This document shows, piece after piece, positions 9,524 through 34,618 of a stretch of 34,618 nt of DNA. Made by a program: the position numbers and the translations under genes. Source of the DNA: an uncultured Rubritalea sp. (GTDB taxonomy: Bacteria > Verrucomicrobiota > Verrucomicrobiia > Verrucomicrobiales > Akkermansiaceae); assembly GCA_937132085.1 (NCBI GenBank), contig CAKZNV010000230.1:1-34618 (forward strand). The letters are read 5' to 3'. The stretch's first letter is position 1; the number at the start of each line of letters is the position of its first letter. Below the pieces are notes generated by a model, which was not told the DNA's origin, ran no database searches, and saw only the letters and a list, made by a program, of their open reading frames with translations.

Positions 9524-10785
9524 GATCTATCTCTCGGTGACCTTCACGCGGAGAAATTGCTTAGCAGTGGTGATAGGGGTGAGCGATTGCCATACGTAGG
9601 TGACAGTTCCGTCTGCATTGTAGGTCTCAGAAACGAAGGCCACTTTGTCGGTGGCAGATGTCCAGCTACTAGGATCGAAGTCTGTCGTGTATTCAACTGC
9701 TGTTGTTGCCGCTTCAGCTAATGGGTTGATTGTGAAAGTGATCGTGAGGAAATCATCTATGCCTATGGTGCTGATGCCAACCTGAGGAATCCCTGGGATG
9801 ACATAATCTACAAGGTCAGAGATGCCATTGCCGTTTACATCTACCATCGGGTTAAGTGGTGGAGTCGGGAGAGTCTCTCCGCTACCAGGAGTGCCATTGG
9901 CTTGGCCAGATGCACGCCAGTTAGTCGCAAGGTTATGATCAGGGTTTGACATAGGATCGATCAATACAAGAGAGGCGCCTTGTCCATCTGCGCTGTCTGG
10001 CCAAGGAGCATCATCGTTATAGGTAAAGCTGAGAAGTATAGATCCTCCCTGAGTTAATGTGAGAGTTTCTCCACCATTGCTGAGCTTTCCTGAGTAGTTA
10101 CCAGCAACGTTTTGTGAGTTTCCGTAACGAGCGGCATAGGCCAGACTATTTTTGGCCAGAACAAGTCGTTCTCCAGGAGCCAATAGAGGATTCGTTAAGG
10201 TTGAAAAATCGAAGCCAATACCAGATACAGAGTTGTCGAATGCTAAACTGCTGAGGTCGAAGGTTGTCGTTCCAGTGTTGAGTAGCTCGATGAATTCGAA
10301 ATCATCACTATCGATAAATCCTGCCACTTGTTCAGCAGTTGTAGGAGCACCAGGGTTGTAATTAAACTCACTGATGACGAGGCTTGTTAAAGTGGGAATT
10401 GTCCCCGTGGAGAAGCTCGCTTCGTTTAGTGCAGACCATTCATTATTGGTATTTCTTACTCGGGATTTTAACACTGTGGAAGCAGTGAGGACGACTGGGC
10501 TACCGTTGTAGGTAATAGCTGTTCCAGAAACATTGCCACCAGTTAGACGTGGGTCGCTACCATCAGTCGTGTAGTAAATAGTGCCTGTGCCATTAGGATT
10601 AGTTATTGTAATTTGGTCACCGGCGATAATAGAGCCGCCATGCTGAGAAAATACAGGAGCATCAGTGTCCGGGTAGATGTCTTTGGAGCGTAGTTCACCT
10701 AAAAAGGTGGTAGCACGAGCTGGAATCCATGTGTCTTTTCGATAGGAGACTTCAGGGACCCAATCATCAATAGTGTTATAGGGGG
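9524..10785. repeat. Copy 1 of a 1.26-kb near-identical block
   Basis: Compared line by line with 13524-14785, exactly 4,000 bp away. From 9552 to 10785 no mismatch was seen; only three mismatches (9542, 9548, 9551) fall in the remaining bases at the stop-codon end. Identity ends abruptly at 10786, beyond which the two genes differ at roughly one base in six. It covers about the last 418 codons of the first CotH gene. Confidence 0.95.
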
Positions 10786-13366
10786 CGGCTGCAAGCTCGT
10801 CACCCCAACGAGCGGCTTCACAGTTCATAGCAGGCTGGAGTTCATCGGCCATATCTTGGAAAAGTTCCTGCATGCTGGCAGTAGTGTAAACTCCGTCGTT
10901 GAACATGTGCTTGTGGATGCGATCACCAAAGCGCACCTGAAACTCGGGTGACTTACGTAGTCGGTCATAAATGATACCTGGTGAGTTGCCGTTATTTACT
11001 CCTGTGCGGTCGCTACTGAAGAACAAATAGTTCTCTGGATCCCATATATAAAAGAGAAAGGGTCCGCCAGTTGAATCGTTGCGGTGAACATACCAATTGT
11101 TGTGAGGCCAATCAGTATTGCTTCCCCAAAAGTTGGCTATCAGGTAGTCGATAAATTGATCTTGATCAACTTGGCTGACAATCGCCTGATGTTTTACTGA
11201 ATCATAGCTTCCTGTATAATTATTACACAAGGTCATCAATGCATCCCAAGCTATTTTATTTCCCTGCAGTAGTTCTCCAGCAGTTTTAATCACTGTGTAG
11301 TCGGTTTCATCTCCACCTTTATGGAGCTCGGCAAATTCTCCGTCTGGGCGTTCATGGGTGTTATAAATACCCCAGTATTTGCCGTTGATGTAAAGGTGCG
11401 ACCAGTTCGAAGCGATGGTGAGATTACCTGTGCGAGCGTGGGCAACAGTAGCGTAGTGAGTTCTGAACTGTAGAGCGTTAGAGCGGAATAAACCATCACC
11501 ACCTCCATCCGAGTGAGTTGTCCAGGAGTCGAAGTAACTGCCACGTAAGACAATATTAGAAACCTCGCCAGGGCCAGTTTGCCCCCATAGTGGATACTTG
11601 AAGCGTGAGGAACCATATTGTTTCCTAAAGGAGAGGCGCATAGATTTTTTGCCGAGAACTCGTCTTCGGCTACCAGACCCTTGTAGGCGAAGTCCTCCGT
11701 CCACTTGATAACCTGGAGATCCGTCGGGATTAATTATTTCAACGGAACAACCACGTTCCCATGCAGAGCCTTCTGAGGTAGGGTTTCTATAGACTCCATT
11801 AGGCCCCCACACATCATCGACAGGTAAAACTACAGATAGTGTAGGTAGAGTCAGAAGATCGGTAGCTAGAGTGGAATAACGAGGATCATTCACCACATCT
11901 GGGTCCATGTCGTAGTCCCATATCGATAAGCCAGATGTGTAGATAGGTAGTCCAGTTCCATTTTGACTCAGCACATGTTGGGGGAATAAATACGTTACGG
12001 TATCAATGTTGGTTGACTGGTAGTTTGTCTTTACTGCGATGGCTCGCAAAACAGTCGTGGTAGTGATCAACACAGTTCCACTGGGAGGAGTGTTAGCATC
12101 TAGCGGGAGAATTTGTGTTCCGTTTGTGAGCGATGGCTCTGAGCCATCTGTGGTGTAGATAATTGTAGCTCCAGGATCTGGACAGGTGATTGTCTCGTTG
12201 AGCGAGGTGTAGTAAAAGCCTCTACCGTGAGTGAAGGAGGTGTCAGTAAGTGTTCCTTCGTAGGCGGTGTTACCATTAATAGTTCCAGGTGTCGGTGATG
12301 TGAAAAATCCTGTGGTAGATGCTCCAGTATCGTTAACTATAGCTACCAACTCACAGCGAAATAAGGCGTCTGAGCTATTAGAAGTGACGTTGAGACCCTG
12401 AATAGCGAGAATGTTGTTAGTGCCACTGACTAGGTTGGGAATCATGTCAGACACATCAAAGTCTTCGAACACGGTTGCTGATGCTTCGGGATTATTTCCT
12501 CCGGCAACGGTTGAGTTCCACGTTAGGGTATTCGGTGCGTAGGAGCTGCCAGTGGCTGGAGTAGAGCCATTGATAAATGAAGCAAAACCATCGTCATATT
12601 TCATGCGTAGCGTTAGTGAAAGAATGTCGCTGGGATTAACTGTCACGTTTACTGGGATACGAATATAGACAGAAGTGTTTTGGTTATACATCGCCGCTTC
12701 TACATCTAGGTTAATGTCGTTTTGATATCCGGTGCTTCTCTCGTATCCGACTCCTTGGAGTCCAGATTGCCATGTTGAGTCGTTAAATCCTGCTGCATTA
12801 TTTCGCCATGTTGTGCCTACTAGAGTATTATAGGCAGCATCAGGCACACGAGCTTTACATGCATCGTTTTCAGTGACGAGGGTCATTGTAGTTGACGGCA
12901 TAGATGCTCCGTAAGATATGCCTGTTTCTTGTGGTGGGTAGCTCGGAGCGAATGCTGTAGATACGACGCCAGTAGGAGAGAGTAGGGCAAGATATTCCCC
13001 AGATTTCGAAAGTGAGAAATTAGTATGTAGCTCTGAGCCTGCAACGCTGCGGTTTTTACTAGAAGCAAAGACAACGATGATTTCTCCAGGTTGGAGGGTC
13101 TCACTAGGAAATGCCCATTTTGTTAGATTAGTTTCATCGTCGGTGAGCTTCCAGTTATTCAGGTTCAACACAGTATTGCCTGAGTTGCGTATTTCAATCC
13201 AGTCTGAGGCGTCACCATCTTCATCAAGTAGACTTCCATCATTCGACGCTACAAATTCTGTAATCACAGCAGTAGCCCGCACCTCCATACAAGAAATGGC
13301 GCTAATCAGCATGGTCACAAACAAAACCATTAACTTAGCTGAGAACATTTTGGAGGTCATTATCAT
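9527..13366 (-). CDS. Exported CotH-kinase/lamin-tail-domain protein (paralogue 1), 1279 aa
   Basis: Giant surface-type protein. Order: signal peptide (1-32), lamin tail domain (about 34-140, with EFVASNDGSLLDEDG and SDWIEIRN), a beta-rich linker, a chitobiase/hexosaminidase C-terminal-like repeat (IIYTTDGSEPS near 400), a CotH-kinase domain (about 505-880, with HLYINGKYWGIYNTHERPDG and YIWDPE), a second IYYTTDGSDP repeat, a second lamin tail domain (about 995-1125) and a beta-rich tail. CotH proteins are atypical kinases known from spore-coat phosphorylation; the extracellular target here is unknown. A GTG at 13396 extends the frame, but alignment with the paralogue supports the ATG at 13366. 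It lies just downstream of its paralogue on the same strand. No PEP-CTERM or T9SS tail was recognised. Confidence 0.88.
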   Translation of the reverse strand: MIMTSKMFSAKLMVLFVTMLISAISCMEVRATAVITEFVASNDGSLLDEDGDASDWIEIRNSGNTVLNLNNWKLTDDETNLTKWAFPSETLQPGEIIVVFASSKNRSVAGSELHTNFSLSKSGEYLALLSPTGVVSTAFAPSYPPQETGISYGASMPSTTMTLVTENDACKARVPDAAYNTLVGTTWRNNAAGFNDSTWQSGLQGVGYERSTGYQNDINLDVEAAMYNQNTSVYIRIPVNVTVNPSDILSLTLRMKYDDGFASFINGSTPATGSSYAPNTLTWNSTVAGGNNPEASATVFEDFDVSDMIPNLVSGTNNILAIQGLNVTSNSSDALFRCELVAIVNDTGASTTGFFTSPTPGTINGNTAYEGTLTDTSFTHGRGFYYTSLNETITCPDPGATIIYTTDGSEPSLTNGTQILPLDANTPPSGTVLITTTTVLRAIAVKTNYQSTNIDTVTYLFPQHVLSQNGTGLPIYTSGLSIWDYDMDPDVVNDPRYSTLATDLLTLPTLSVVLPVDDVWGPNGVYRNPTSEGSAWERGCSVEIINPDGSPGYQVDGGLRLQGSGSRRRVLGKKSMRLSFRKQYGSSRFKYPLWGQTGPGEVSNIVLRGSYFDSWTTHSDGGGDGLFRSNALQFRTHYATVAHARTGNLTIASNWSHLYINGKYWGIYNTHERPDGEFAELHKGGDETDYTVIKTAGELLQGNKIAWDALMTLCNNYTGSYDSVKHQAIVSQVDQDQFIDYLIANFWGSNTDWPHNNWYVHRNDSTGGPFLFYIWDPENYLFFSSDRTGVNNGNSPGIIYDRLRKSPEFQVRFGDRIHKHMFNDGVYTTASMQELFQDMADELQPAMNCEAARWGDELAAAPYNTIDDWVPEVSYRKDTWIPARATTFLGELRSKDIYPDTDAPVFSQHGGSIIAGDQITITNPNGTGTIYYTTDGSDPRLTGGNVSGTAITYNGSPVVLTASTVLKSRVRNTNNEWSALNEASFSTGTIPTLTSLVISEFNYNPGAPTTAEQVAGFIDSDDFEFIELLNTGTTTFDLSSLAFDNSVSGIGFDFSTLTNPLLAPGERLVLAKNSLAYAARYGNSQNVAGNYSGKLSNGGETLTLTQGGSILLSFTYNDDAPWPDSADGQGASLVLIDPMSNPDHNLATNWRASGQANGTPGSGETLPTPPLNPMVDVNGNGISDLVDYVIPGIPQVGISTIGIDDFLTITFTINPLAEAATTAVEYTTDFDPSSWTSATDKVAFVSETYNADGTVTYVWQSLTPITTAKQFLRVKVTER

Positions 13367-13412
13367 ATAGCTATAATAACGCAATTTTTTGATCACTCTA
13401 AGGGTTAATGTC

Positions 13413-13523: not shown

Positions 13524-14785
13524 GATCTATCTCTCGGTGACTTTCACACGAAGAAATTGCTTAGCAGTGGTGATAGGGGTGAGCGATTGCCATACGTAGG
13601 TGACAGTTCCGTCTGCATTGTAGGTCTCAGAAACGAAGGCCACTTTGTCGGTGGCAGATGTCCAGCTACTAGGATCGAAGTCTGTCGTGTATTCAACTGC
13701 TGTTGTTGCCGCTTCAGCTAATGGGTTGATTGTGAAAGTGATCGTGAGGAAATCATCTATGCCTATGGTGCTGATGCCAACCTGAGGAATCCCTGGGATG
13801 ACATAATCTACAAGGTCAGAGATGCCATTGCCGTTTACATCTACCATCGGGTTAAGTGGTGGAGTCGGGAGAGTCTCTCCGCTACCAGGAGTGCCATTGG
13901 CTTGGCCAGATGCACGCCAGTTAGTCGCAAGGTTATGATCAGGGTTTGACATAGGATCGATCAATACAAGAGAGGCGCCTTGTCCATCTGCGCTGTCTGG
14001 CCAAGGAGCATCATCGTTATAGGTAAAGCTGAGAAGTATAGATCCTCCCTGAGTTAATGTGAGAGTTTCTCCACCATTGCTGAGCTTTCCTGAGTAGTTA
14101 CCAGCAACGTTTTGTGAGTTTCCGTAACGAGCGGCATAGGCCAGACTATTTTTGGCCAGAACAAGTCGTTCTCCAGGAGCCAATAGAGGATTCGTTAAGG
14201 TTGAAAAATCGAAGCCAATACCAGATACAGAGTTGTCGAATGCTAAACTGCTGAGGTCGAAGGTTGTCGTTCCAGTGTTGAGTAGCTCGATGAATTCGAA
14301 ATCATCACTATCGATAAATCCTGCCACTTGTTCAGCAGTTGTAGGAGCACCAGGGTTGTAATTAAACTCACTGATGACGAGGCTTGTTAAAGTGGGAATT
14401 GTCCCCGTGGAGAAGCTCGCTTCGTTTAGTGCAGACCATTCATTATTGGTATTTCTTACTCGGGATTTTAACACTGTGGAAGCAGTGAGGACGACTGGGC
14501 TACCGTTGTAGGTAATAGCTGTTCCAGAAACATTGCCACCAGTTAGACGTGGGTCGCTACCATCAGTCGTGTAGTAAATAGTGCCTGTGCCATTAGGATT
14601 AGTTATTGTAATTTGGTCACCGGCGATAATAGAGCCGCCATGCTGAGAAAATACAGGAGCATCAGTGTCCGGGTAGATGTCTTTGGAGCGTAGTTCACCT
14701 AAAAAGGTGGTAGCACGAGCTGGAATCCATGTGTCTTTTCGATAGGAGACTTCAGGGACCCAATCATCAATAGTGTTATAGGGGG
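13524..14785. repeat. Copy 2 of the 1.26-kb near-identical block
   Basis: Partner of 9524-10785. It covers codons 861 to the stop of the second CotH gene. The boundary at 14785/14786 falls inside the 3' end of the CotH domain rather than at a gene edge. Confidence 0.95.
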
Positions 14786-17363
14786 AGGAAGTGTGTTCGT
14801 CACCCCAGCGTGCTGCTTCACAGTTCATAGCAGGCTGTAGCTCATCTGCTATATCTTGCATGAGTTGTTGCATATTAGCAGTGGTGTAAACACCGTCGTT
14901 GAACATGTGCTTGTGGGCTAGATCACCAAAGCGAATCTGAAATTCTGGTGATCTACGTAGTCGGTCATAAATGATACCTGGAGAGTTTGCGTTGTTTACT
15001 CCTGTGCGGTCATTACTGGCGTAAAGATAGTGTTCTGGGTCCCATATATAAAAGAGAAATGGGCCGCTTGTTGTGTCGTTTCTGTGAACATACCAGTTAT
15101 TGTGAGGCCAATCCGCATTGCCTCCCCAGAAGTTAGCTAATAGGTATTCGATAAATTGATCTTGGTCAATCTGATCAACAATCGCCTGGTGTTTAACTGA
15201 ATCATAGCCACCTGTATAGCCACTACACAGAGCCATTAGTGCGTCCCATGCTACTTTATTACCTTGAAGTAGTTCTCCAGCAGTTTTGATTACAGTGTAG
15301 TCAGTTTCATCGCCACCTTTGTGAAGTTCAGCGAATTCTCCGTCTGGGCGTTCATGGGTGTTATAAATACCCCAATACTTGCCATTGATGTAGAGGTGTG
15401 ACCAGTTGGAGGCGATTGTTAAATTACCTGTTCTAGCGAAAGCTTCTGTGGCGTAGTGGGTTCTAAATTGTAGTGCGTTTGAGCGAGTAATTCCGTCGCC
15501 ACCTCCATCTACATGAACTGTCCATGAGTCAAAATAGCTGCCACGGAGAACGATATTGGATACTTCACCAGGGCCTGTCTGCCCCCATAATGGATACTTG
15601 AAACGTGATGAACCATATTGTTTTCTGAAAGAGAGGCGCATGGATTTTTTTCCAATGGCACGGGTTCTACTACCGGAACCTTGAATACGAAGTCCGCCAT
15701 CTACTTGGTAGCCTTGTGAGCCATCGGCATTAATTACTTCAACTGAGCATCCGCGTTCCCAGGCAGAGCCTTCAGAAGTTGGGTTTCTATAGATTCCGTT
15801 AGTTCCCCATACGTCATCGACAGGCATTACCACAGAGAGAGTGGGGAGGGTAAGAAGATCATCTGCTAAAGTGGAATAACGAGGATCAGTCACGACATCA
15901 GGATCCATTTCATAATCCCAGATAGATGATCCAGAGGTGTAGATCGGTAGTCCTGTTCCACTTTGGGTTAACACGTGTTGGGGGAATAAATAGGTTACTG
16001 TATCAATGTTAGTAGGCTGGTAATTTGTCTTCACTGCGATCGCACGTAAAACAGTAGTGGTGGTGATCAAGATAGATCCGCTCGGTGCTGTGTTTGCATC
16101 TAGAGGTAGAATTTGTGTTCCGTTGGTGATTGACGGTTCAGATCCGTCAGTGGTGTAAATGATTGTTGATCCTAGATCAGGACAAGTGATCGTTTCGTTG
16201 ATTGTGGTGTAGTAGAAGCCTCGACCATGAGTAAAGGAGGTATCACTAAGTATTCCGATATAGGCAGTGTCACCATTAATAGTTCCAGGTGTCGGTGTAG
16301 TGAAGAATCCTGTAGTGGTAGCTCCTGTGTCGGCTACTACAGCAACTAGTTCACAACGGTAGAGCGCATCTGAGCTATTCACTGTGGCGTTGAGGCCTTG
16401 GATAGCGAGAATGTTGTTAGTGCCACTGACTAGATTTGGGATCATGTCAGAAACGTCAAAGTCTTCGAACACAGTAGACGAAGCTTCGGGAGTGGATCCA
16501 TTTGATGCGGAGTTCCATGCGAGGGTAGCGGGTGCGAACGAAGCTCCATTGGCAGGAGTCGATCCATTGATGAACGATGCAAAGCCATCGTCATATTTCA
16601 TACGTAAAGTTAGTGACAGAATGTCGTTCGGGTTCACGGTCACGTTGATGGGGATACGGACATAGATGGATGTGTTTTGGTTATACATGGTCGCTTCCAC
16701 GTCCAGGTTGATATCATTCTGAAAGCCATTACTTCTCTCATATCCCACACCTTGGAGTCCACTCTGCCATGTTGAGTCATTAAATCCTGCTGCATTATTC
16801 CGCCATGTTGTTCCTACTAAGGTGTTATAGGCTGCATCTGGCACACGGGCTTTACAGGTGTCGTCTTCAGTGACGAGCACTACAGTATTTGATGGCGTAG
16901 ATGAGCCGTAGGATATTCCTGTTTCCTGAGGAGGATAGCTGGGTGAAAATGCTGTAGAAACGACGCCAGTTGGAGAGATCAAGGCGAGATATTCACCGGC
17001 CTTAGCTAGCGAGAAGTTAGTGTGAAGCTCTGATCCAGCAACTCTACGATCTTTTCCAGAGGCGAAAACAACGATGATTTCTCCAGCTTGAAGAGTCACA
17101 CTAGGGAATGCCCATTTTGTTAGATTGGTGTTATCGTCGGTGAGTTTCCAGTTGTTCAGGTTCAGAGCGGTATTACCTGTGTTTCTGATCTCTATCCAAT
17201 CTGAGGCTAGACCATCTTCATCGAGAAGGCTTCCATCATTTGACGCTACAAATTCTGAAATAACCGCATTAGCTCGCAGTTCCATACAAGAAACGAGGCT
17301 AATCAGCATGGTCACAAACAGAACCATAATCTTAGCTGAAATCATTTTAGAGGCTTTAATCAT
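13527..17363 (-). CDS. Exported CotH-kinase/lamin-tail-domain protein (paralogue 2), 1278 aa
   Basis: Same architecture as its downstream neighbour: signal peptide (1-32), lamin tail domain (about 34-140), a linker with MKYDDGFASFINGSTP (255-270), a hexosaminidase-C-like repeat (IIYTTDGSEPS 401-411), CotH-kinase core (about 505-870, with the IWDPE motif at 773-777), a second IYYTTDGSDP repeat (929-938), second lamin tail domain (995-1125) and a conserved tail. Residues 861-1278 match the paralogue exactly; residues 1-860 differ at many, mostly conservative, positions. The ATG at 17363 opens directly on the Lys-containing signal peptide. The gene appears to have its own upstream region like that of paralogue 1, so the pair arose by tandem duplication that included the promoter. 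Confidence 0.9.
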   Translation of the reverse strand: MIKASKMISAKIMVLFVTMLISLVSCMELRANAVISEFVASNDGSLLDEDGLASDWIEIRNTGNTALNLNNWKLTDDNTNLTKWAFPSVTLQAGEIIVVFASGKDRRVAGSELHTNFSLAKAGEYLALISPTGVVSTAFSPSYPPQETGISYGSSTPSNTVVLVTEDDTCKARVPDAAYNTLVGTTWRNNAAGFNDSTWQSGLQGVGYERSNGFQNDINLDVEATMYNQNTSIYVRIPINVTVNPNDILSLTLRMKYDDGFASFINGSTPANGASFAPATLAWNSASNGSTPEASSTVFEDFDVSDMIPNLVSGTNNILAIQGLNATVNSSDALYRCELVAVVADTGATTTGFFTTPTPGTINGDTAYIGILSDTSFTHGRGFYYTTINETITCPDLGSTIIYTTDGSEPSITNGTQILPLDANTAPSGSILITTTTVLRAIAVKTNYQPTNIDTVTYLFPQHVLTQSGTGLPIYTSGSSIWDYEMDPDVVTDPRYSTLADDLLTLPTLSVVMPVDDVWGTNGIYRNPTSEGSAWERGCSVEVINADGSQGYQVDGGLRIQGSGSRTRAIGKKSMRLSFRKQYGSSRFKYPLWGQTGPGEVSNIVLRGSYFDSWTVHVDGGGDGITRSNALQFRTHYATEAFARTGNLTIASNWSHLYINGKYWGIYNTHERPDGEFAELHKGGDETDYTVIKTAGELLQGNKVAWDALMALCSGYTGGYDSVKHQAIVDQIDQDQFIEYLLANFWGGNADWPHNNWYVHRNDTTSGPFLFYIWDPEHYLYASNDRTGVNNANSPGIIYDRLRRSPEFQIRFGDLAHKHMFNDGVYTTANMQQLMQDIADELQPAMNCEAARWGDEHTSSPYNTIDDWVPEVSYRKDTWIPARATTFLGELRSKDIYPDTDAPVFSQHGGSIIAGDQITITNPNGTGTIYYTTDGSDPRLTGGNVSGTAITYNGSPVVLTASTVLKSRVRNTNNEWSALNEASFSTGTIPTLTSLVISEFNYNPGAPTTAEQVAGFIDSDDFEFIELLNTGTTTFDLSSLAFDNSVSGIGFDFSTLTNPLLAPGERLVLAKNSLAYAARYGNSQNVAGNYSGKLSNGGETLTLTQGGSILLSFTYNDDAPWPDSADGQGASLVLIDPMSNPDHNLATNWRASGQANGTPGSGETLPTPPLNPMVDVNGNGISDLVDYVIPGIPQVGISTIGIDDFLTITFTINPLAEAATTAVEYTTDFDPSSWTSATDKVAFVSETYNADGTVTYVWQSLTPITTAKQFLRVKVTER

Positions 17364-29949: not shown

Positions 29950-30534
29950 ATGGATCCTATTTCAAAGCGACAATTTCTATTAAGTATCGGCACACTCGGA
30001 GCAAGCGTAGTTTTAAACAACTGCGCTGGAATCAACCAACTGGGAGGCCTAGGTAACATTGGCCTCGGTCCAGGTCTTATGCCTACATTCCTCATCAAAC
30101 CACAAATGATGATGAGTAAACTCACACCGCATTTTCCATTTCAGCAAGGCTATAAAGGCCTTGCTGACATAAGCTTCTCTAACCCTGTGCTCAGCATGGT
30201 TCCTGAGTCAGATAAAGTCAGAGTAGGGCTTACCACGCTTGGTGGAATTCGTGGCACAGGTCGTAAACTTGGTGGCAGATGCCAGATTGCCTGTGGCTTA
30301 AACTATGATCCTAAGACACGAGGAATCTACCTAAAGGACTCAGTGGTGGAAGATTTCACTCTAACAGGAGTTTCTAGTCAGCTCACCTCTGGCATACGCG
30401 ATGTGGCGAACCTCGTAGGAAAGAATTTGTTAGAGCGCTATCCAGTCTACACACTCGGAGATAGTGCCGGTTTAGGATTACTTAAAAAGATGAATGTCAC
30501 TGACCAAGGAATCTTACTAAGTTTCGGTATTTAA
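29950..30534 (+). CDS. DUF1439 lipoprotein (YceB-like)
   Basis: The N-terminus KRQFLLSIGTLGASVVLNNC (residues 6-25) has a hydrophobic core ending in a lipobox-like LNNC with Cys25, so envelope anchoring is likely. The body has FPFQQGYKGLADISFSNPVLSMVPESDKVRVGL-type alternation and SQLTSGIRDVANLVGKNLLERYPVYTL, which fits the DUF1439/YceB family of small lipid-binding-like folds. Function is unknown. It is the last plus-strand gene before the cassette-like region; its stop is followed at once by AAACGTTG (30533-30540), echoing the ACGTT motif of that array. Confidence 0.75.
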   Translation: MDPISKRQFLLSIGTLGASVVLNNCAGINQLGGLGNIGLGPGLMPTFLIKPQMMMSKLTPHFPFQQGYKGLADISFSNPVLSMVPESDKVRVGLTTLGGIRGTGRKLGGRCQIACGLNYDPKTRGIYLKDSVVEDFTLTGVSSQLTSGIRDVANLVGKNLLERYPVYTLGDSAGLGLLKKMNVTDQGILLSFGI

Positions 30535-30623
30535 ACGTTGATACTCATTTAGAGTCACTGACCGAACACATCCAGTCTAGTAGGGAATAGATATGTTCTC
30601 GATCTCAGTGGCTGCAGGTAGTC

Positions 30624-30992
30624 CTAGGATGCATCATTTGTTCGTGATGAAGGATCCTTTTCTGTTGCGGTTGGTCGAGAAGTATTCAACCAGAAGATCT
30701 GAATTAAAACATAAACCAACGATACTAATAGCAACCTTACATTTTCTGCATCAAACCCATGGTCTGCTATATGAGCGAGCCGTAAGATTCCACTCCAGCA
30801 TAGGATGCCGATCAAGCATTGCGCAGCAATTCTCCGAGCACAAAGAATACCGATAGAGCATGCAATCACAGCCAAGCATTCAAAAATAAACTTAGGGTCT
30901 TTTATCGCTATAGCCAGTGGCAACGTGAAAGAGCTTGTTAAGATGAGAACGAGAGCAGAAAGTTGCGCTATGATTTTAGCTGTGGTCTTCAT
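30624..30992 (-). CDS. Small multi-pass membrane protein, 122 aa
   Basis: Not recognised. Four hydrophobic stretches (about 8-30, 35-51, 55-70 and 85-100) suggest three or four membrane helices, followed by a hydrophilic tail. It is the downstream-most member of the minus-strand array and is preceded by a spacer with an imperfect hairpin (31007-31073). No family or partner can be suggested. An overlapping plus-strand frame is a shadow. Confidence 0.55.
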   Translation of the reverse strand: MKTTAKIIAQLSALVLILTSSFTLPLAIAIKDPKFIFECLAVIACSIGILCARRIAAQCLIGILCWSGILRLAHIADHGFDAENVRLLLVSLVYVLIQIFWLNTSRPTATEKDPSSRTNDAS

Positions 30993-31006
30993 GTAAGTGA
31001 ATGTTG

Positions 31007-31073
31007 AAGCTCAGTAAGCCCAGAGGGGCGAGCTAGCGTGAAATTTATGTTTATAGTTGTAGTTGTCTGAGTT
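31007..31073 (-). repeat. attC-like imperfect hairpin, spacer E
   Basis: AAGCTCAG (31007-31014) pairs with CTGAGTT (31067-31073), leaving one bulged G. TGTAGTT, shared with two other spacers of the array, lies just before the second arm (31058-31064), and AGAGGGGCGAGCTAGCG resembles GGAGGGCGAACTTTGACG of the spacer at 33760-33837. Confidence 0.45.
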
Positions 31074-31128
31074 GCTATAGAAGCAGGCGCTATCAGTAGA
31101 GGATTACTGCGACTAGATTTCGGTCTTT

Positions 31129-31479
31129 TCATCTTTTCCAGAAATCCCACCAAGGAGTTTTGTTGAGTTTCTTCTTAGTAATGGTTCGATACCAATTCTT
31201 GTGTTCATTAGCATCGTCAGCGAAACCAGCAGCAACAAACAGATCTCGCCAGTCAGTTTTAGCTAGATCAAACGCATTTTCCTCACTGTCTACGTTCGTT
31301 GCAATCACCTTGAGGATTGAGAACCGAATCCTATCCATGTCTGCTGATTTACTGTTGTTATGAAAAGGAATGTTCTCAGCGGCTTCGATCTCTAACCTTC
31401 TTGCAAGCTTGGAGAGTAGAGGCTCTTCAAAGAGAAGCTCCAACAGCTTGTTAACTTTCTTGGTTAATGGTAGGGACAT
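31129..31479 (-). CDS. Hypothetical cytosolic protein, 116 aa
   Basis: Not recognised. It has no signal peptide or membrane segment and is predicted mostly helical, with a Lys/Leu-rich N-terminus, a central acidic part and an aromatic C-terminus (WYRTITKKKLNKTPWWDFWKR). The ATG lies 10 bases after an ACGTT motif in the upstream spacer. It shares orientation and spacer pattern with its neighbours, as expected of a gene cassette. Confidence 0.6.
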   Translation of the reverse strand: MSLPLTKKVNKLLELLFEEPLLSKLARRLEIEAAENIPFHNNSKSADMDRIRFSILKVIATNVDSEENAFDLAKTDWRDLFVAAGFADDANEHKNWYRTITKKKLNKTPWWDFWKR

Positions 31480-31487
31480 TTCAGGAG

Positions 31488-31560
31488 AACGTTTTAGTTG
31501 AGCTAAATCTTATGAGCTAAAGTAGACTTTTATTTAATGGATGTAGTTGTGTGAAAAGTT
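31488..31560 (-). repeat. attC-like imperfect hairpin, spacer D
   Basis: AACGTTTT (31488-31495) pairs with AAAAGTT (31554-31560) with a single bulged G at 31491. AAC and GTT sit at the outer ends. TGTAGTT at 31542-31548 precedes the second arm. On the minus strand the next gene's ATG follows the ACGTT motif by 10 bases. Confidence 0.48.
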
Positions 31561-31587
31561 ATAGGAATAAGCAGCGTCATAGCTTAA

Positions 31588-32112
31588 CTACTCTGGCTCA
31601 GTTGCTTTTTCGTTTTTCTTAGACAGTATGTAATTTGCTGTAAACATCACATCGCCATCTTCTGAGTGCACAATGCCATCAATATATACTTTTCCATCAG
31701 CTTTGAGTTTTCCATTTTGCACCGCGGTCCAGCCCCTGGTGTTTTTTGATTTAAAGGTGAATTCTGTCTGATTTTTGATTTGTAATAGGTAGGTGATAAT
31801 CTTGCCTTCTGTGTCTTTGGCTTCCCCTGTAAAAGTATTCTCAACTTCTGTCTTCATCCATTTAATAGAAACGCGATGCTTTGTGTTTGGCTGATAGATG
31901 TAATCTGAAGTCTCAATAAAGCTCTTTTTGTCAGCTGAAAGTTTACCGGTTCTGGTTCCTGTAAATGCTAGTTTCTCTACTTCATTTGGAGAGTCTAGCT
32001 CTCCTGATATGATCACGGGATGAGTGAAGAATTCGAAATACCAAGCTTTGAACTCTTGAGAGAAAACTGGTGATGTTAGAGAAAAGAGTATGAGTAGAAT
32101 TAGATGTTTCAT
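31588..32112 (-). CDS. Secreted protein of unknown function, 174 aa
   Basis: A short typical signal peptide (MKHLILLILFSLTSPVFSQ, cleavage after Ser18) leads into a beta-rich body with many Thr, Lys and aromatic residues (WYFEFFTHPVIISGEL, KHRVSIKWM). No cysteine, lipobox or catalytic motif is visible. It lies within the minus-strand array, separated from both neighbours by hairpin-containing spacers. No function can be suggested. Confidence 0.58.
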   Translation of the reverse strand: MKHLILLILFSLTSPVFSQEFKAWYFEFFTHPVIISGELDSPNEVEKLAFTGTRTGKLSADKKSFIETSDYIYQPNTKHRVSIKWMKTEVENTFTGEAKDTEGKIITYLLQIKNQTEFTFKSKNTRGWTAVQNGKLKADGKVYIDGIVHSEDGDVMFTANYILSKKNEKATEPE

Positions 32113-32117
32113 TTTTA

Positions 32118-32173
32118 GAAAATCGCCTTAGATTAACTGCTTTGTATGGAATGTCATATAAGGCAGTGGTTTC
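32118..32173 (-). repeat. attC-like imperfect hairpin, spacer C
   Basis: GCCTTA (32125-32130) pairs with TAAGGC (32159-32164); an outer GAAA (32118-32121) can pair with TTTC (32170-32173) across unequal internal loops. It lacks the ACGTT motif of the other spacers (CGATT instead), so it is the weakest of the set with regard to sequence. Confidence 0.38.
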
Positions 32174-32194
32174 AAGGTTATAGTTTAGGTTTGG

Positions 32195-32779
32195 CTACTG
32201 TGATTGCTTATCCTTTTTTGTTGAGGGAATTACACGAAGCGTAAATTGCTCATTCATATCAAAGTCAAGATGTTCATGTAAATCAGCCTTCAAACGAAGT
32301 TGAATAACGACTTTTGATTTTTTTATACTAACAATTTTGACTGATGCTAAATCAGCTTTCTTCATCCATCCCATCATCGGATTCCCAAACCTGAAAGCAG
32401 TAACTTCTCCGTCCTTCATAGAGGCGATTTGAGTGTATTCGTTTATCTTCATAGCAGCTCGCTTATTCGGTATGGCTTTGAGCTGAATGGTTTGCCCTTC
32501 CTTTACATCAGATGGAAGTTGGAAAACAATATTGTAATAACTAACGCCGTCAAAGGTCCCAACCAGAAAGTTGTGTTCAGAAAGGCTAACCGCTATAGAT
32601 GCTCCGGACTTCACTTCATGATGTTCCCATGCTCCATTATAAACCTTGTTGGCGATTACCTGAACATCATGACTCCACGTATTTTTGGTGGTGGTTTTGA
32701 CCTGGTTCTGAGTCATTGAGCAACTTGATAGAGTAACACAAGCAAAGGCGATAAATATTAAATAGAGTAGATGCGACAT
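32195..32779 (-). CDS. Lipoprotein of unknown function, 194 aa
   Basis: The signal ends in TLSSC (Cys20) followed by Ser-Met, a good lipobox. The body is rich in beta-forming residues with a basic C-terminal half (VKIVSIKKSKVVIQLRLKADL) and no recognised family. Its ATG lies 12 bases after the ACGTT motif of spacer B. Part of the same-orientation array of small genes. Confidence 0.6.
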   Translation of the reverse strand: MSHLLYLIFIAFACVTLSSCSMTQNQVKTTTKNTWSHDVQVIANKVYNGAWEHHEVKSGASIAVSLSEHNFLVGTFDGVSYYNIVFQLPSDVKEGQTIQLKAIPNKRAAMKINEYTQIASMKDGEVTAFRFGNPMMGWMKKADLASVKIVSIKKSKVVIQLRLKADLHEHLDFDMNEQFTLRVIPSTKKDKQSQ

Positions 32780-32791
32780 ATTTTTAGAGAA

Positions 32792-32857
32792 CGTCTTATT
32801 CTAGCGCCATTGGAGAATGGGCGCAAGTATGGACTTTTGTTAGTTTCTATGGAGACG
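32792..32857 (-). repeat. attC-like imperfect hairpin, spacer B
   Basis: Outer arms CGTCT (32792-32796) and AGACG (32853-32857). Inside, GCGCCATT (32804-32811) pairs with AATGGGCGC (32816-32824) around GGAG, leaving one extra G. The minus-strand ACGTTCTC (ending at 32787) leads to TAAAAAT and the ATG of the lipoprotein gene at 32779. Confidence 0.48.
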
Positions 32858-32917
32858 CAAAGAATTTGCTATCGTAGTTTGCTAGGCAGGATCATTTGGC
32901 TGAATCGACTTTAAGAA

Positions 32918-33235
32918 TCATGGATTTATCTTAGACCGTTTTACACTAGTTGATTTCCAGAACTTAGAATACGCTTTGAATAACTCAGAGTAAAAGGCTG
33001 TTATCTCCTGCTTTGTTGCTACTGAGACATGATCGCCTTCCACTGATACAACAATTTGACTAGGCTTCATGTTGTCGAAATACTCTGAAGCTTCAGCCTC
33101 GCTAATTGCTTTGTTATCTAGAAAAAATTCGTTTTTATCTTCATTAAGAACAAGTCCAGAAGTTTCTATTTTTGGAGCACAACAACTAGTTAGTAAGATC
33201 GATAATATTCCTGTGAGGACTACGAGATATTTCAT
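32918..33235 (-). CDS. Small lipoprotein of unknown function, 105 aa
   Basis: The signal (MKYLVVLTGILSILLTSC) ends in a lipobox with Cys18, followed by a second Cys. The mature part is acidic then basic, with PSQIVVSVEGDHVSVA suggesting a beta pair. A TTG at 33244 would overlap the upstream gene; the ATG at 33235 is one base after that gene's TAA (33237-33239) and fits the signal peptide. It is thus co-transcribed with the 33237-33746 gene, making a likely two-gene cassette. Confidence 0.58.
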   Translation of the reverse strand: MKYLVVLTGILSILLTSCCAPKIETSGLVLNEDKNEFFLDNKAISEAEASEYFDNMKPSQIVVSVEGDHVSVATKQEITAFYSELFKAYSKFWKSTSVKRSKINP

Positions 33236-33236
33236 T

Positions 33237-33746
33237 TTATTCAATGTCGTTACGATAGTTGACTGTAAATCCTTGGTTATTGAGGAAATCTAATAAATTT
33301 TTTGAAGCCTTGATTTTTGCTTCTTGCGATAGCCAGAATCCCAAAATAGTTCTGCGGCGAAAACCGTTGTCTGTATCCCACAGATTTAAAGTTGTTGTCG
33401 ACTCTATACTATTTGATGATTTTACGTGTTCAATGGTTATTTCTAAGGGCTGTTTTCGAGATATTTTGAATTGTAGTTTTTCTGGGTTAGTCCTTGAAAC
33501 AATTAAATCTTCATCAGTGACCTCTAATATATCGCCTCTGTTATGTTGGCATAGAATGTAAGGAATAATGAGAAAAAGCAAACCTCCAAATGATGTAATT
33601 ACCCACAGTTGATGCTGAATACCAATAAACACAAAACCGAGAACAAATAATGCCCATAAAGTAATACCACAAAGATGGACTTTATCTTTAGGATAGTTAC
33701 GAGGGTTTATTTCAAACCGAGAGCTGGTGTTCACCGAGAGACTCAT
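33237..33746 (-). CDS. Membrane protein of unknown function, 169 aa
   Basis: A short N-terminal cytosolic stretch is followed by two membrane helices (about 25-43 and 46-64), then a soluble domain of about 100 residues containing KISRKQPLEITIEHV and ending in a helical LLDFLNNQGF motif. No known family; the layout resembles PH-like membrane proteins but that is only an impression. The ATG is 13 bases after the ACGTT motif of spacer A. Confidence 0.58.
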   Translation of the reverse strand: MSLSVNTSSRFEINPRNYPKDKVHLCGITLWALFVLGFVFIGIQHQLWVITSFGGLLFLIIPYILCQHNRGDILEVTDEDLIVSRTNPEKLQFKISRKQPLEITIEHVKSSNSIESTTTLNLWDTDNGFRRRTILGFWLSQEAKIKASKNLLDFLNNQGFTVNYRNDIE

Positions 33747-33759
33747 ATTTTTAGCAAAA

Positions 33760-33837
33760 CGTCATAGCATAGCCGACCCCACGGAGGGCGAACTTTGACG
33801 AAGGTGTTGAGGTTGTAGTTAAGTTAAAAGCTATACG
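33760..33837 (-). repeat. attC-like imperfect hairpin, spacer A
   Basis: CGTCATAGC (33760-33768) pairs with GCTATACG (33830-33837) with one bulged C (33763). TGTAGTT at 33814-33820 precedes the second arm. Between the arms is ACGGAGGGCGAACTTTGACG (33781-33800). On the minus strand ACGTTTTGCTAAAAAT leads directly to the ATG at 33746. Confidence 0.5.
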
Positions 33838-33866
33838 ATTATCAGACTCCACAAGAGATGCTAGAT

Positions 33867-33894
33867 AAGCTGACTAGTGTTGCACTTTCAGCTT
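33867..33894 (-). other. Hairpin downstream of the DUF3592-like gene
   Basis: AAGCTGA (33867-33873) pairs with TCAGCTT (33888-33894), and inside it AGTG (33876-33879) with CACT (33883-33886) around a TTG loop. It begins 14 bases after the stop of the 33909-34334 gene. No T-run follows, so it is a stabiliser or weak terminator rather than a canonical one. Confidence 0.45.
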
Positions 33895-33908
33895 GATACT
33901 CAGCATTT

Positions 33909-34334
33909 TTATTGGGTTTCATTATGCACACCGATAATCTTAAGGAAACCAAAAATTCCAATTAAAAGGAATGTGACTGAAGCGATTATTAATTCAAAGA
34001 AAGAATATTGCATCGATAAGCTAGAATCAGAGATGGATTTTGGATTGTAGTAAACAGTGCAAAAATCTCCGACCTGTTTATTAGCAGTATATCGGTTGAA
34101 TGATTCTACATCAGACATGAATGATACTACAGAAATTTTATATTGGTGATTATAGTATTCTTTGTTTTCTACGGAATACCAATATTCTATAGTTATATTC
34201 TTACCATTTCTTGCTAACGTGGTTATTTGACCAGTTGTGCTGTCCCTGTTTCGACTTTCTATATACTTCAAAAAAATGAAAATCGAGTAGGTGAGAAAAA
34301 CGATGAATAAAGTTATAACGATAGCTCTTTTCAT
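33909..34334 (-). CDS. DUF3592-like membrane protein, 141 aa
   Basis: An N-terminal membrane helix (4-24), an extracytoplasmic beta-rich domain with YSVENKEYYNHQYKIS and VGDFCTVYYNPKSISDS, and a C-terminal helix (about 108-131). The VGD-x-VYYNP motif and the two-helix layout match DUF3592, a family of unknown function. No ACGTT motif precedes its start, unlike most neighbours, and the IS110 left end must lie just upstream. Confidence 0.65.
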   Translation of the reverse strand: MKRAIVITLFIVFLTYSIFIFLKYIESRNRDSTTGQITTLARNGKNITIEYWYSVENKEYYNHQYKISVVSFMSDVESFNRYTANKQVGDFCTVYYNPKSISDSSLSMQYSFFELIIASVTFLLIGIFGFLKIIGVHNETQ

Positions 34335-34409
34335 ATTTTGTTTATGTATCGTGCTAAGGTAGGGGGGGAATTGAGGAGGAACTTATTTTTAGGCGAGATT
34401 CTATGGCTG

Positions 34410-34506
34410 AAGCTCATTGTGAGCCATGCCTTGGTTAAAGAGTATGATGAGCTTAGGGTTTCCGTGGGCTATCTCTCTGACACGAGGTCGGAGAGACCTA
34501 TCCAAC
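34410..34506 (+). ncRNA. Candidate IS110 bridge RNA (structured left-end RNA)
   Basis: Upstream of the transposase, AAGCTCAT (34410-34417) pairs perfectly with ATGAGCTT (34447-34454), enclosing a 29-base loop that includes CCTTGG (34429-34434). A second structure follows: TCTCTCTGAC (34472-34481) pairs with GTCGGAGAGA (34487-34496) with one wobble and a 5-base loop, flanked by unpaired GCTA and CCTAT and then TGG/CCA (34465-34467 with 34502-34504). Two successive loops bounded by stems correspond in order and place to the target- and donor-binding loops of IS110 bridge RNAs such as IS621. Exact ends are unknown. Confidence 0.55.
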
Positions 34507-34530
34507 ATATTAATAATACCTAAACTCATC

Positions 34531-34618
34531 ATGAAAGAAATATACTACATCGGGCTAGACGTGCACAAGGACACAGTTGCTATCGCATCTATTAAATCAG
34601 GTTCTCGCTCAGAGGCTA
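34531..34618 (+). CDS. IS110-family transposase, N-terminal fragment (window edge)
   Basis: The first 29 codons read YIGLDVHKDTVAIAS and following residues, the standard N-terminus of IS110 transposases; Asp10 is the first acidic residue of the RuvC-like DEDD active site. These serine-and-DEDD recombinases move a circular intermediate guided by a bridge RNA. The ATG at 34531 fits the usual start. The remainder lies outside the window, so completeness of the element cannot be judged. Confidence 0.9.
   Translation, partial: MKEIYYIGLDVHKDTVAIASIKSGSRSEA

Follow-up and report, generated by a model that had tools for sequence, protein, structure and literature searches.

A row of small genes in an uncultured Rubritalea genome is very probably a segment of a resident chromosomal integron

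The window analyzed here is the whole 34,618-nucleotide stretch of contig C230, one of the 254 contigs in the draft genome of an uncultured Rubritalea sp. Its open reading frame (ORF) list holds a row of seven small genes at 30624-34334, and all seven lie on the minus strand. Along the direction of transcription, the row begins with a gene of 141 aa (33909..34334), followed by two overlapping genes of 169 aa (33237..33746) and 108 aa (32918..33244). Genes of 194 aa (32195..32779), 174 aa (31588..32112), and 116 aa (31129..31479) come next, the last of these belonging to a family with relatives in the taxonomic order, and the row ends with a gene of 122 aa (30624..30992), behind which no attC is found. 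The 108-aa ORF starts at TTG and would encode 105 aa from an inner ATG; neither of the attC models described below (R1 and R2) matches between it and the 169-aa gene, and it is assigned as the second gene of its cassette. None of the seven proteins, the 169-aa product included, scored above a curated threshold of Pfam or NCBIfam, and the best weak match was that of the 141-aa protein to DUF3592 (PF12158, 21.8 bits versus a cut-off of 25.3). The preliminary description of seven small minus-strand genes without assigned function therefore holds, with lengths of 108 (or 105) to 194 aa. The GC content is 38.1% in 30535-34334 versus 45.5% in 1-30534.

Five spacers of 162, 138, 82, 108, and 136 bp separate these genes, in agreement with the 80-160 bp first described (82-162 bp as measured, n = 5). 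The spacers were scored with two covariance models made here, not with the model of IntegronFinder or HattCI: R1 was built from 13 attC sites and R2 from 34, all outside the window, and the rest of the 34.6-kb window on both strands, not shuffled sequence, served as the specificity control. The top four R1 matches in the window, both strands searched, are four of the five spacers on the minus strand, with E values of 1.4e-12, 7.1e-8, 0.0021, and 0.05; the fourth, at 15.1 bits, is little above the best non-spacer match (10.9 bits). The top five R2 matches are all five spacers, the fifth not being significant (E 0.66). The spacers make up 0.9% of the positions when both strands are counted. The concern that covariance scores might be no better than background is thus not borne out, as four of the five spacers score above any other stretch of the window, and both models place four sites within 30996-33882, which gives two or more attC sites within 4 kb of each other.

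The sites differ in their state of preservation. The best-scoring one (33754..33882, minus strand; R1 54.5 bits, E 1.4e-12; R2 63.7 bits, E 6e-12) is a hybrid that retains the inner part and the 3' arm with GACGTT, while its 5' arm is replaced by the end of an IS30-family element, and its arms are unpaired in the DNA fold. The site at 31484..31601 (minus strand), ending AACGTTCTCC, reaches 37 bits with R1 (E 7.1e-8) and 41.8 bits with R2 (E 4.2e-7). The site at 30996..31122 (minus strand; R1 20.3 bits, E 0.0021; R2 26.3 bits, E 0.0011) is degenerate, with ATT in place of GTT at R'. The site at 32786..32899 (minus strand), ending GACGTTCTCT, is weak by both family models, with marginal E values (R1 15.1 bits, E 0.05; R2 20.6 bits, E 0.02). 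A short hairpin inside it (32785-32845) places CTAAC opposite GTT with paired arms and may be the real site, an intact short attC. When the whole genome was searched, E was no better than 0.38 for the 30996 site, and the matches listed did not include the 32786 site. The stretch at 32113..32221 (minus strand), which covers a spacer plus the end of the preceding gene and carries the inner motif AACTATAACC, probably holds a strongly degenerate attC; R2 matches it at 32146-32221 (13.8 bits, E 0.66), and R1 finds no match in this spacer. At the left end of the array, the ACGTT proposed as its border is present at 30535-30539, but neither covariance model matches in 30535-30623, and the hairpin there is read as one between two convergent genes.

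Three of the four window sites (33754, 32786, and 31484) have the R' core GTT, as ACGTT before a gene start, and the start codons of the three genes lie 11, 10, and 8 bases past GTT as counted in the sequence. The three genes first described as beginning just past ACGTT(C/T)T are confirmed, with the motif at 33756-33762, 32788-32794, and 31486-31492; it occurs four times on the minus strand of the window, three of them at cassette-gene starts, and eight times on the plus strand. Likewise, TGTAGTT is present in three spacers (31058, 31542, and 33814), and it also occurs at 12887, 28774, and 33472. In attC sites, the consensus after GTT is RRRY. The window sequences read GTTTTGC, GTTCTCT, and GTTCTCC, none of which is RRRY, and this absence had been taken as a sign of a divergent family or another kind of module exchange. 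No divergent system is needed to explain it: among 13 aligned attC sites from other parts of the same genome, not one has RRRY after GTT, and 12 of these 13 sites end in ACGTT. In the R1 and R2 alignments, AAC is found at the R'' positions in none of the four window sites, and the arm pairing present in the attC family is partial in three of them; in the fourth, at 33754, it is absent from the DNA fold.

Folding of single sequences was set aside as proof of attC, as its z scores are mostly uninformative: -0.10 for 33752-33890, -3.53 for 32785-32845 (a portion of its spacer), and -1.42, -1.17, and -1.39 for the other spacer stretches. Only one value stands out, and the hairpins by themselves are weak evidence for attC. 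Four of the five values, at only -1.42 to -0.10, would suit hairpins that act as terminators or arise by chance in the spacers of an ordinary operon or a genomic island, an explanation that we regard as extremely improbable given that independent covariance models select exactly these spacers; for the sites at 33754 and 31484 it is refuted by the R1 E values of 1.4e-12 and 7.1e-8. Pairing is supported by the alignment of 34 sites, where both partners vary in 9 of 14 pairs, in 27 cells versus 8.4 in shuffles, and 85.8% of cells are paired versus at most 36.6% when the alignment is slid, figures to be read with the alignment having been fitted to the model.

Two integron integrases are encoded on other contigs of the genome, C18 and C24 (TIGR02249, 376.6 and 345.9 bits, cut-off 265), and both align to nearly the whole profile, so that the search for intI elsewhere in the genome suggested by the preliminary description was successful. 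The label of an array without visible integrase is accurate for C230, where the profile search gave no tyrosine-recombinase match up to the end of the contig at 34618, beyond which the far side is out of view, but not for the genome as a whole. On C24, the layout is the usual one, and the integrase is accompanied by a divergent minus-strand row of five small ORFs upstream, which carries three attC sites (460-585, 1024-1113, and 1512-1638). The window spacer at 33747 is 88.9% identical over 90 bp to a C24 site, and the window spacers share their attC family with 15 other contigs, including the site beside the C24 integrase. Genome-wide, at least 35 attC matches at E<=0.05, 13 of them training sites of R1, were found on 16 contigs; the number of matches is a lower bound because 150 of 1084 first-look candidates were scored. 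Scores within the genome are inflated for the 13 (R1) and 34 (R2) training sites, and the window belongs to neither set. At the Rfam gathering threshold, the one match from four sources is the end of a group II intron on C18.

The repetition of the spacer family on many contigs, together with the insertion-sequence ends in some spacers, could also point to dispersed intergenic repeats of the REP or MITE kind that are not recombination sites. We consider this very improbable, as all but one of the 13 aligned sites end in ACGTT, the paired arms co-vary, and the same sites adjoin an integron integrase in two genomes. The second of these genomes emerged from 52 integrase loci scanned with R1, of which two matched at E<=0.1: L139 with one site, and L125 (ERR2094166_bin.15) with three attC sites on the strand opposite to the integrase. 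No attC match was found at the integrase locus of Rubritalea marina. With only 2 of 52 integrase loci matched, R1 stays close to its own lineage and is no general attC model.

Within the inferred order, Verrucomicrobiales, 43 of 58 genomes (own genome included) have an attC match at E<=0.001, under filters stricter than those of the own-genome count, so that a model from a single genome recognizes sites of this kind in many related genomes, and 29 of the 58 encode an integron integrase above the cut-off. Among 189 genomes of the order, again including its own, homologues of the 116-aa, 174-aa, and 194-aa genes were found in 6, 3, and 2, respectively. The loci of these homologues in other genomes, read to about 1.5 kb on each side, gave no attC match with R1 (nine loci) or R2 (eight of these). 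The proteins of the genes at 30624, 32918, 33237, and 33909 were looked for only in fetched loci of the DUF1439 gene that flanks the array, a relative of which occurs in 9 of 39 genomes including its own. Six of the eight other genomes were read, the two weakest (G022 and G020) being left out, and in these six relatives none of the seven genes, and no attC, lies beside the DUF1439 gene. A fixed order of the seven genes in relatives, which would have spoken against cassettes, is therefore not seen there. No exact empty site was seen among the six; their loci also lack the remaining genes that flank the array in the window, and so record absence instead of a clean empty site.

Since the window spacers share the attC family of the array next to the C24 integrase, the proposal of an integron cassette array is supported, and we conclude with high confidence that the row is a segment of a resident chromosomal (sedentary) integron. 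The array is real but of a known kind; integrons are an established bacterial gene-collecting system, and no new exchange system is required. Its lack of a visible integrase most likely reflects the split assembly, and the integrase would be out of view since the contig breaks off within an insertion sequence that recurs in the genome. A unit comprises one gene or two with an attC recombination site behind, and, judging from integron biology, the integrase would have captured the genes singly through recombination at the GTT of attC folded as a single strand. Such capture would account for genes that share one orientation, are small and unrelated, and start just past GTT.

Sedentary chromosomal integrons are exemplified by those of Vibrio, Xanthomonas, and Treponema. 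The present genome resembles them in its TIGR02249 integrase, its divergent array, its small genes of no assigned function, and the similarity of attC within the genome, whereas its attC sites occur on at least 16 different contigs of the draft and may represent one array or several. Highly similar attC sites are described as general in such integrons in the available text of PMC8352920. The window also resembles a CALIN, described as two or more attC separated by under 4 kb on a contig that lacks an integrase (PMC9024848, PMC9668308, available text), in having just this arrangement; unlike a CALIN called by IntegronFinder, it was scored with our own models, and the genome has integrases on other contigs. 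CALIN counts tend to be too high in draft genomes, according to the available text of PMC9024848. Integrons in Verrucomicrobiota have already been published (PMC8618304), and a literature search, judged by titles, gave no work on Rubritalea integrons. Verrucomicrobiota is not among the 11 taxa for which dedicated attC models are named in the available text of PMC8352920, so such a model would aid annotation of these genomes. Even in phyla with sparse sampling, attC arrays can be recognized from raw sequence, as the present case indicates.

The segment is probably old and decaying. The signs of decay would be the lost arms or core bases, two units without or nearly without attC, and the insertion-sequence end in one site, and on these grounds several cassettes of the array probably no longer move. 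Such degenerate sites may show how cassettes turn into fixed genes. Continued recombination of these integron cassettes by the C24 or C18 integrase is unlikely: ACGTT before the gene start in the 33754, 32786, and 31484 sites, the possibly intact short attC at 32785-32845, and the near-complete integrases fit it, whereas the best-scoring site has an IS30 end as its 5' arm that does not pair with the 3' arm, the 30996 site has ATT at R', the 32113 spacer is barely recognizable as attC, and the last gene has no attC. This question concerns the state of the array, not its identity.

Two kinds of insertion sequence occur in or beside the array. A C-terminal remnant of an IS30-family transposase (33837..33893, plus strand) lies within the hybrid attC, with peptide and DNA matches to copies on C156, C219, and C24, and the C219 copy matches NF033563 (transpos_IS30) at 291.4 bits, cut-off 80. 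The same replacement of the attC 5' arm by an IS30-family end, fused to the inner part and the 3' arm, is found in the window, C186, and C221. At the right end of the window (34383..34618, plus strand) lie the left end and first codons of another insertion sequence, inside which the contig breaks off and which we take from a motif to be IS110-like. A protein-family scan of its 67-aa fragment on C107 gave no match. Tentatively, the two kinds may repeatedly home on attC, and insertion followed by later deletion could turn arrays into fixed gene rows; as a part of this reading, the IS110-like element would, again as a mere possibility, repeatedly sit at the expected R' position of a cassette. If true, homing on attC would offer mobile cassettes a way to become permanent genes of the chromosome. 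A long noncoding stretch before the transposase start is the IS110 arrangement in the available text of PMC11187229. The right-end element has such a stretch, unlike IS1111, with its family assigned by motif only; it resembles the attC-targeting IS1111 elements ISKpn4 and ISPst6 in recurring mostly on attC-bearing contigs. Its copies often abut cassette-start-like sequence, and 13 of its 15 matches in the genome, itself included, lie on attC-bearing contigs.

The seven small minus-strand genes and hairpin-bearing spacers at 30533-34334, for which a possible integron cassette array had been suggested, were confirmed, as was the ACGTT(C/T)T motif before three gene starts. The suggestion itself was borne out, with two TIGR02249 integrases in the genome and with covariance models trained outside the window ranking the window spacers first. 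The first model (R1) was built from 13 aligned outside attC sites, with a manually assigned structure based on the paired arms; across its 14 pairs, 94.3% of cells hold a standard pairing, compared with at most 44.9% when slid. A search of the entire window, on both strands and with filters off, gave four array spacers as top matches, all in minus orientation: 33754-33882 (54.5 bits, E 1.4e-12), 31484-31601 (37 bits, E 7.1e-8), 30996-31122 (20.3 bits, E 0.0021) and 32786-32899 (15.1 bits, E 0.05). The fifth-best match (10.9 bits) lies outside the spacers. The same four were recovered (63.7, 41.8, 26.3 and 20.6 bits, respectively) by a second model, trained on 34 sites outside the window, in which both sides vary in 9 of 14 pairs; the fifth spacer ranked fifth (13.8 bits, E 0.66), by itself not significant. 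In single-sequence folding, only one of the five spacer stretches stands apart from shuffles.

The sequence motifs by themselves are feeble evidence because both also occur outside the array in the window. TGTAGTT, the complement of the inner attC motif (consensus AACTACAACC in the 13-site alignment), is present six times on the plus strand, three of them inside spacers; ACGTT[CT]T has four minus-strand occurrences, of which three are at the array, and eight plus-strand ones. None of the seven array proteins reached the curated cut-offs of Pfam or NCBIfam, and the GC content is 38.1% across 30535-34334 versus 45.5% across 1-30534. By eye, many cassette genes, including those starting at 33746, 32779 and 32112 and others in the genome, begin in a common context of (G)TT, a short gap and TAAAAAT(A)TG, the last of which sits in the incoming cassette, outside attC.

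The preliminary description had the array without an integrase, which holds for the window, contig C230, but not for the draft genome to which it belongs (4.46 Mb, 254 contigs). Two of its 19 tyrosine-recombinase matches are integron integrases, on contigs C18 (2020-2988, 322 aa, 376.6 bits) and C24 (2813-4087, 424 aa, 345.9 bits), and no other match in this genome exceeds the TIGR02249 cut-off of 265. The C24 protein carries about 110 additional N-terminal residues, its integron-integrase match starting at residue 113. Five small ORFs lie upstream of its gene on the opposite strand and reach the contig end, the usual integron layout; three of their four spacers contain attC sites (e.g. TAACAAGTCGCAGTAGCC...GGCTATGCTATGACGTTA), and one of these sites is 88.9% identical over 90 bp to the window spacer at 33747. 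At the edge of C18 (L020:8-76), close to cassette sequence and that contig's integrase, a match to RF00029 (50.8 bits) marks the end of a group II intron.

C230 breaks off within a repeated insertion sequence (34383-34618, left end near 34383), which is probably why no integrase is in view on it, and we infer that the array continues on another contig. This element, presumably IS110-like by its N-terminal motif, has 15 genome matches including the window copy, 13 of them on attC-bearing contigs (12 of the 14 other than the window copy). Its junction shows TTTTTA in 10 of 14 distinct copies (counted by eye), corresponding to the common cassette start TAAAAAT. A 67-aa fragment of it on C107 matched no protein family. 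The splitting of arrays in draft genomes is described in PMC9024848.

IS30-family ends were also found at the sites. The 5' arm of the first attC (33754-33882) is the end of such an element, and the transposase fragment at 33837-33893 recurs on C156, C219 and C24, the C219 copy scoring 291.4 bits (cut-off 80) as an IS30 transposase. Such ends replace the attC 5' arm at window 33830-33893 and, in the fetched loci, at L193:4495-4586, L191:4723-4817, L021:2-116 (C24), L198:3050-3119 and L192:1229-1271. The same end is joined to the inner attC part on C186 and C221 too. At the three fusions observed (window, L198 and L192), it looks as if the element body and the attC 5' arm had been lost together.

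In the mechanism proposed by analogy with known integrons, the integrase would recombine folded attC strands at GTT, so that genes are gathered in one direction. In transcription order, the six units of the array, all on the minus strand, are gene 34334-33909, followed by the hybrid attC; the gene pair 33746-32918, whose attC is at 32786; gene 32779-32195, where the attC is scarcely recognisable; gene 32112-31588, whose attC is at 31484; gene 31479-31129, which has an attC reading ATT at R'; and gene 30992-30624, which lacks one. None of the four window sites has AAC at R'' in the alignments to both models. Taken with the hybrid, degenerate or absent sites and the IS30-family end, this suggests that the segment is probably decaying. 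The stretch 32785-32845 folds into a short hairpin (z -3.53) whose two ends read CTAAC and GTT. It may represent a short attC that is intact but poorly aligned by the family models, and it counts against decay for that unit. Such a site would favor cassettes that are still mobile; however, given the hybrid first site, the ATT and the last gene lacking attC, we consider continued mobility of the array unlikely.

The attC family extends beyond the window. In a scan that scored 150 of 1084 candidates, R1 gave 44 matches at E<=10 in its own genome; at least 35, spread over 16 contigs, reach E<=0.05, and 33 of the 35 lie outside the window. Of 58 related genomes, counting this one, 43 show an R1 match at E<=0.001 and 29 an integron integrase above the TIGR02249 cut-off. 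One integrase, in uncultured Verrucomicrobiales ERR2094166_bin.15 (L125), shares 77% identity with the C24 protein and is accompanied by three attC on the opposite strand. Judged by the named relatives of the integrases, the host probably belongs to Verrucomicrobiales, close to Akkermansiaceae and Rubritalea. Near the flanking DUF1439 gene, six relatives (of eight other genomes with its relative) contain none of the seven array genes and no attC; the window's remaining flanking genes are not shared with them, and the comparison therefore gives no exact empty site. For three of the cassette proteins, relatives are present in 6, 3 and 2 of 189 genomes from the order (counting this one), and the short flanks retrieved around them contained no attC.

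Verrucomicrobiota are listed among phyla with integrons in PMC8618304. The integron is thus already known in this phylum, and the window array is a further case. Least covered by the literature consulted is the recurrence, within one genome, of IS30-family and IS110-like ends inside or next to attC. IS1111 elements targeting attC, ISKpn4 and ISPst6, are already known (PMC11187229).

Elsewhere in the window, two adjacent giant ORFs (9527-13396, 1289 aa; 13527-17363, 1278 aa) have C-terminal parts alike by eye and are probably a tandem duplication.
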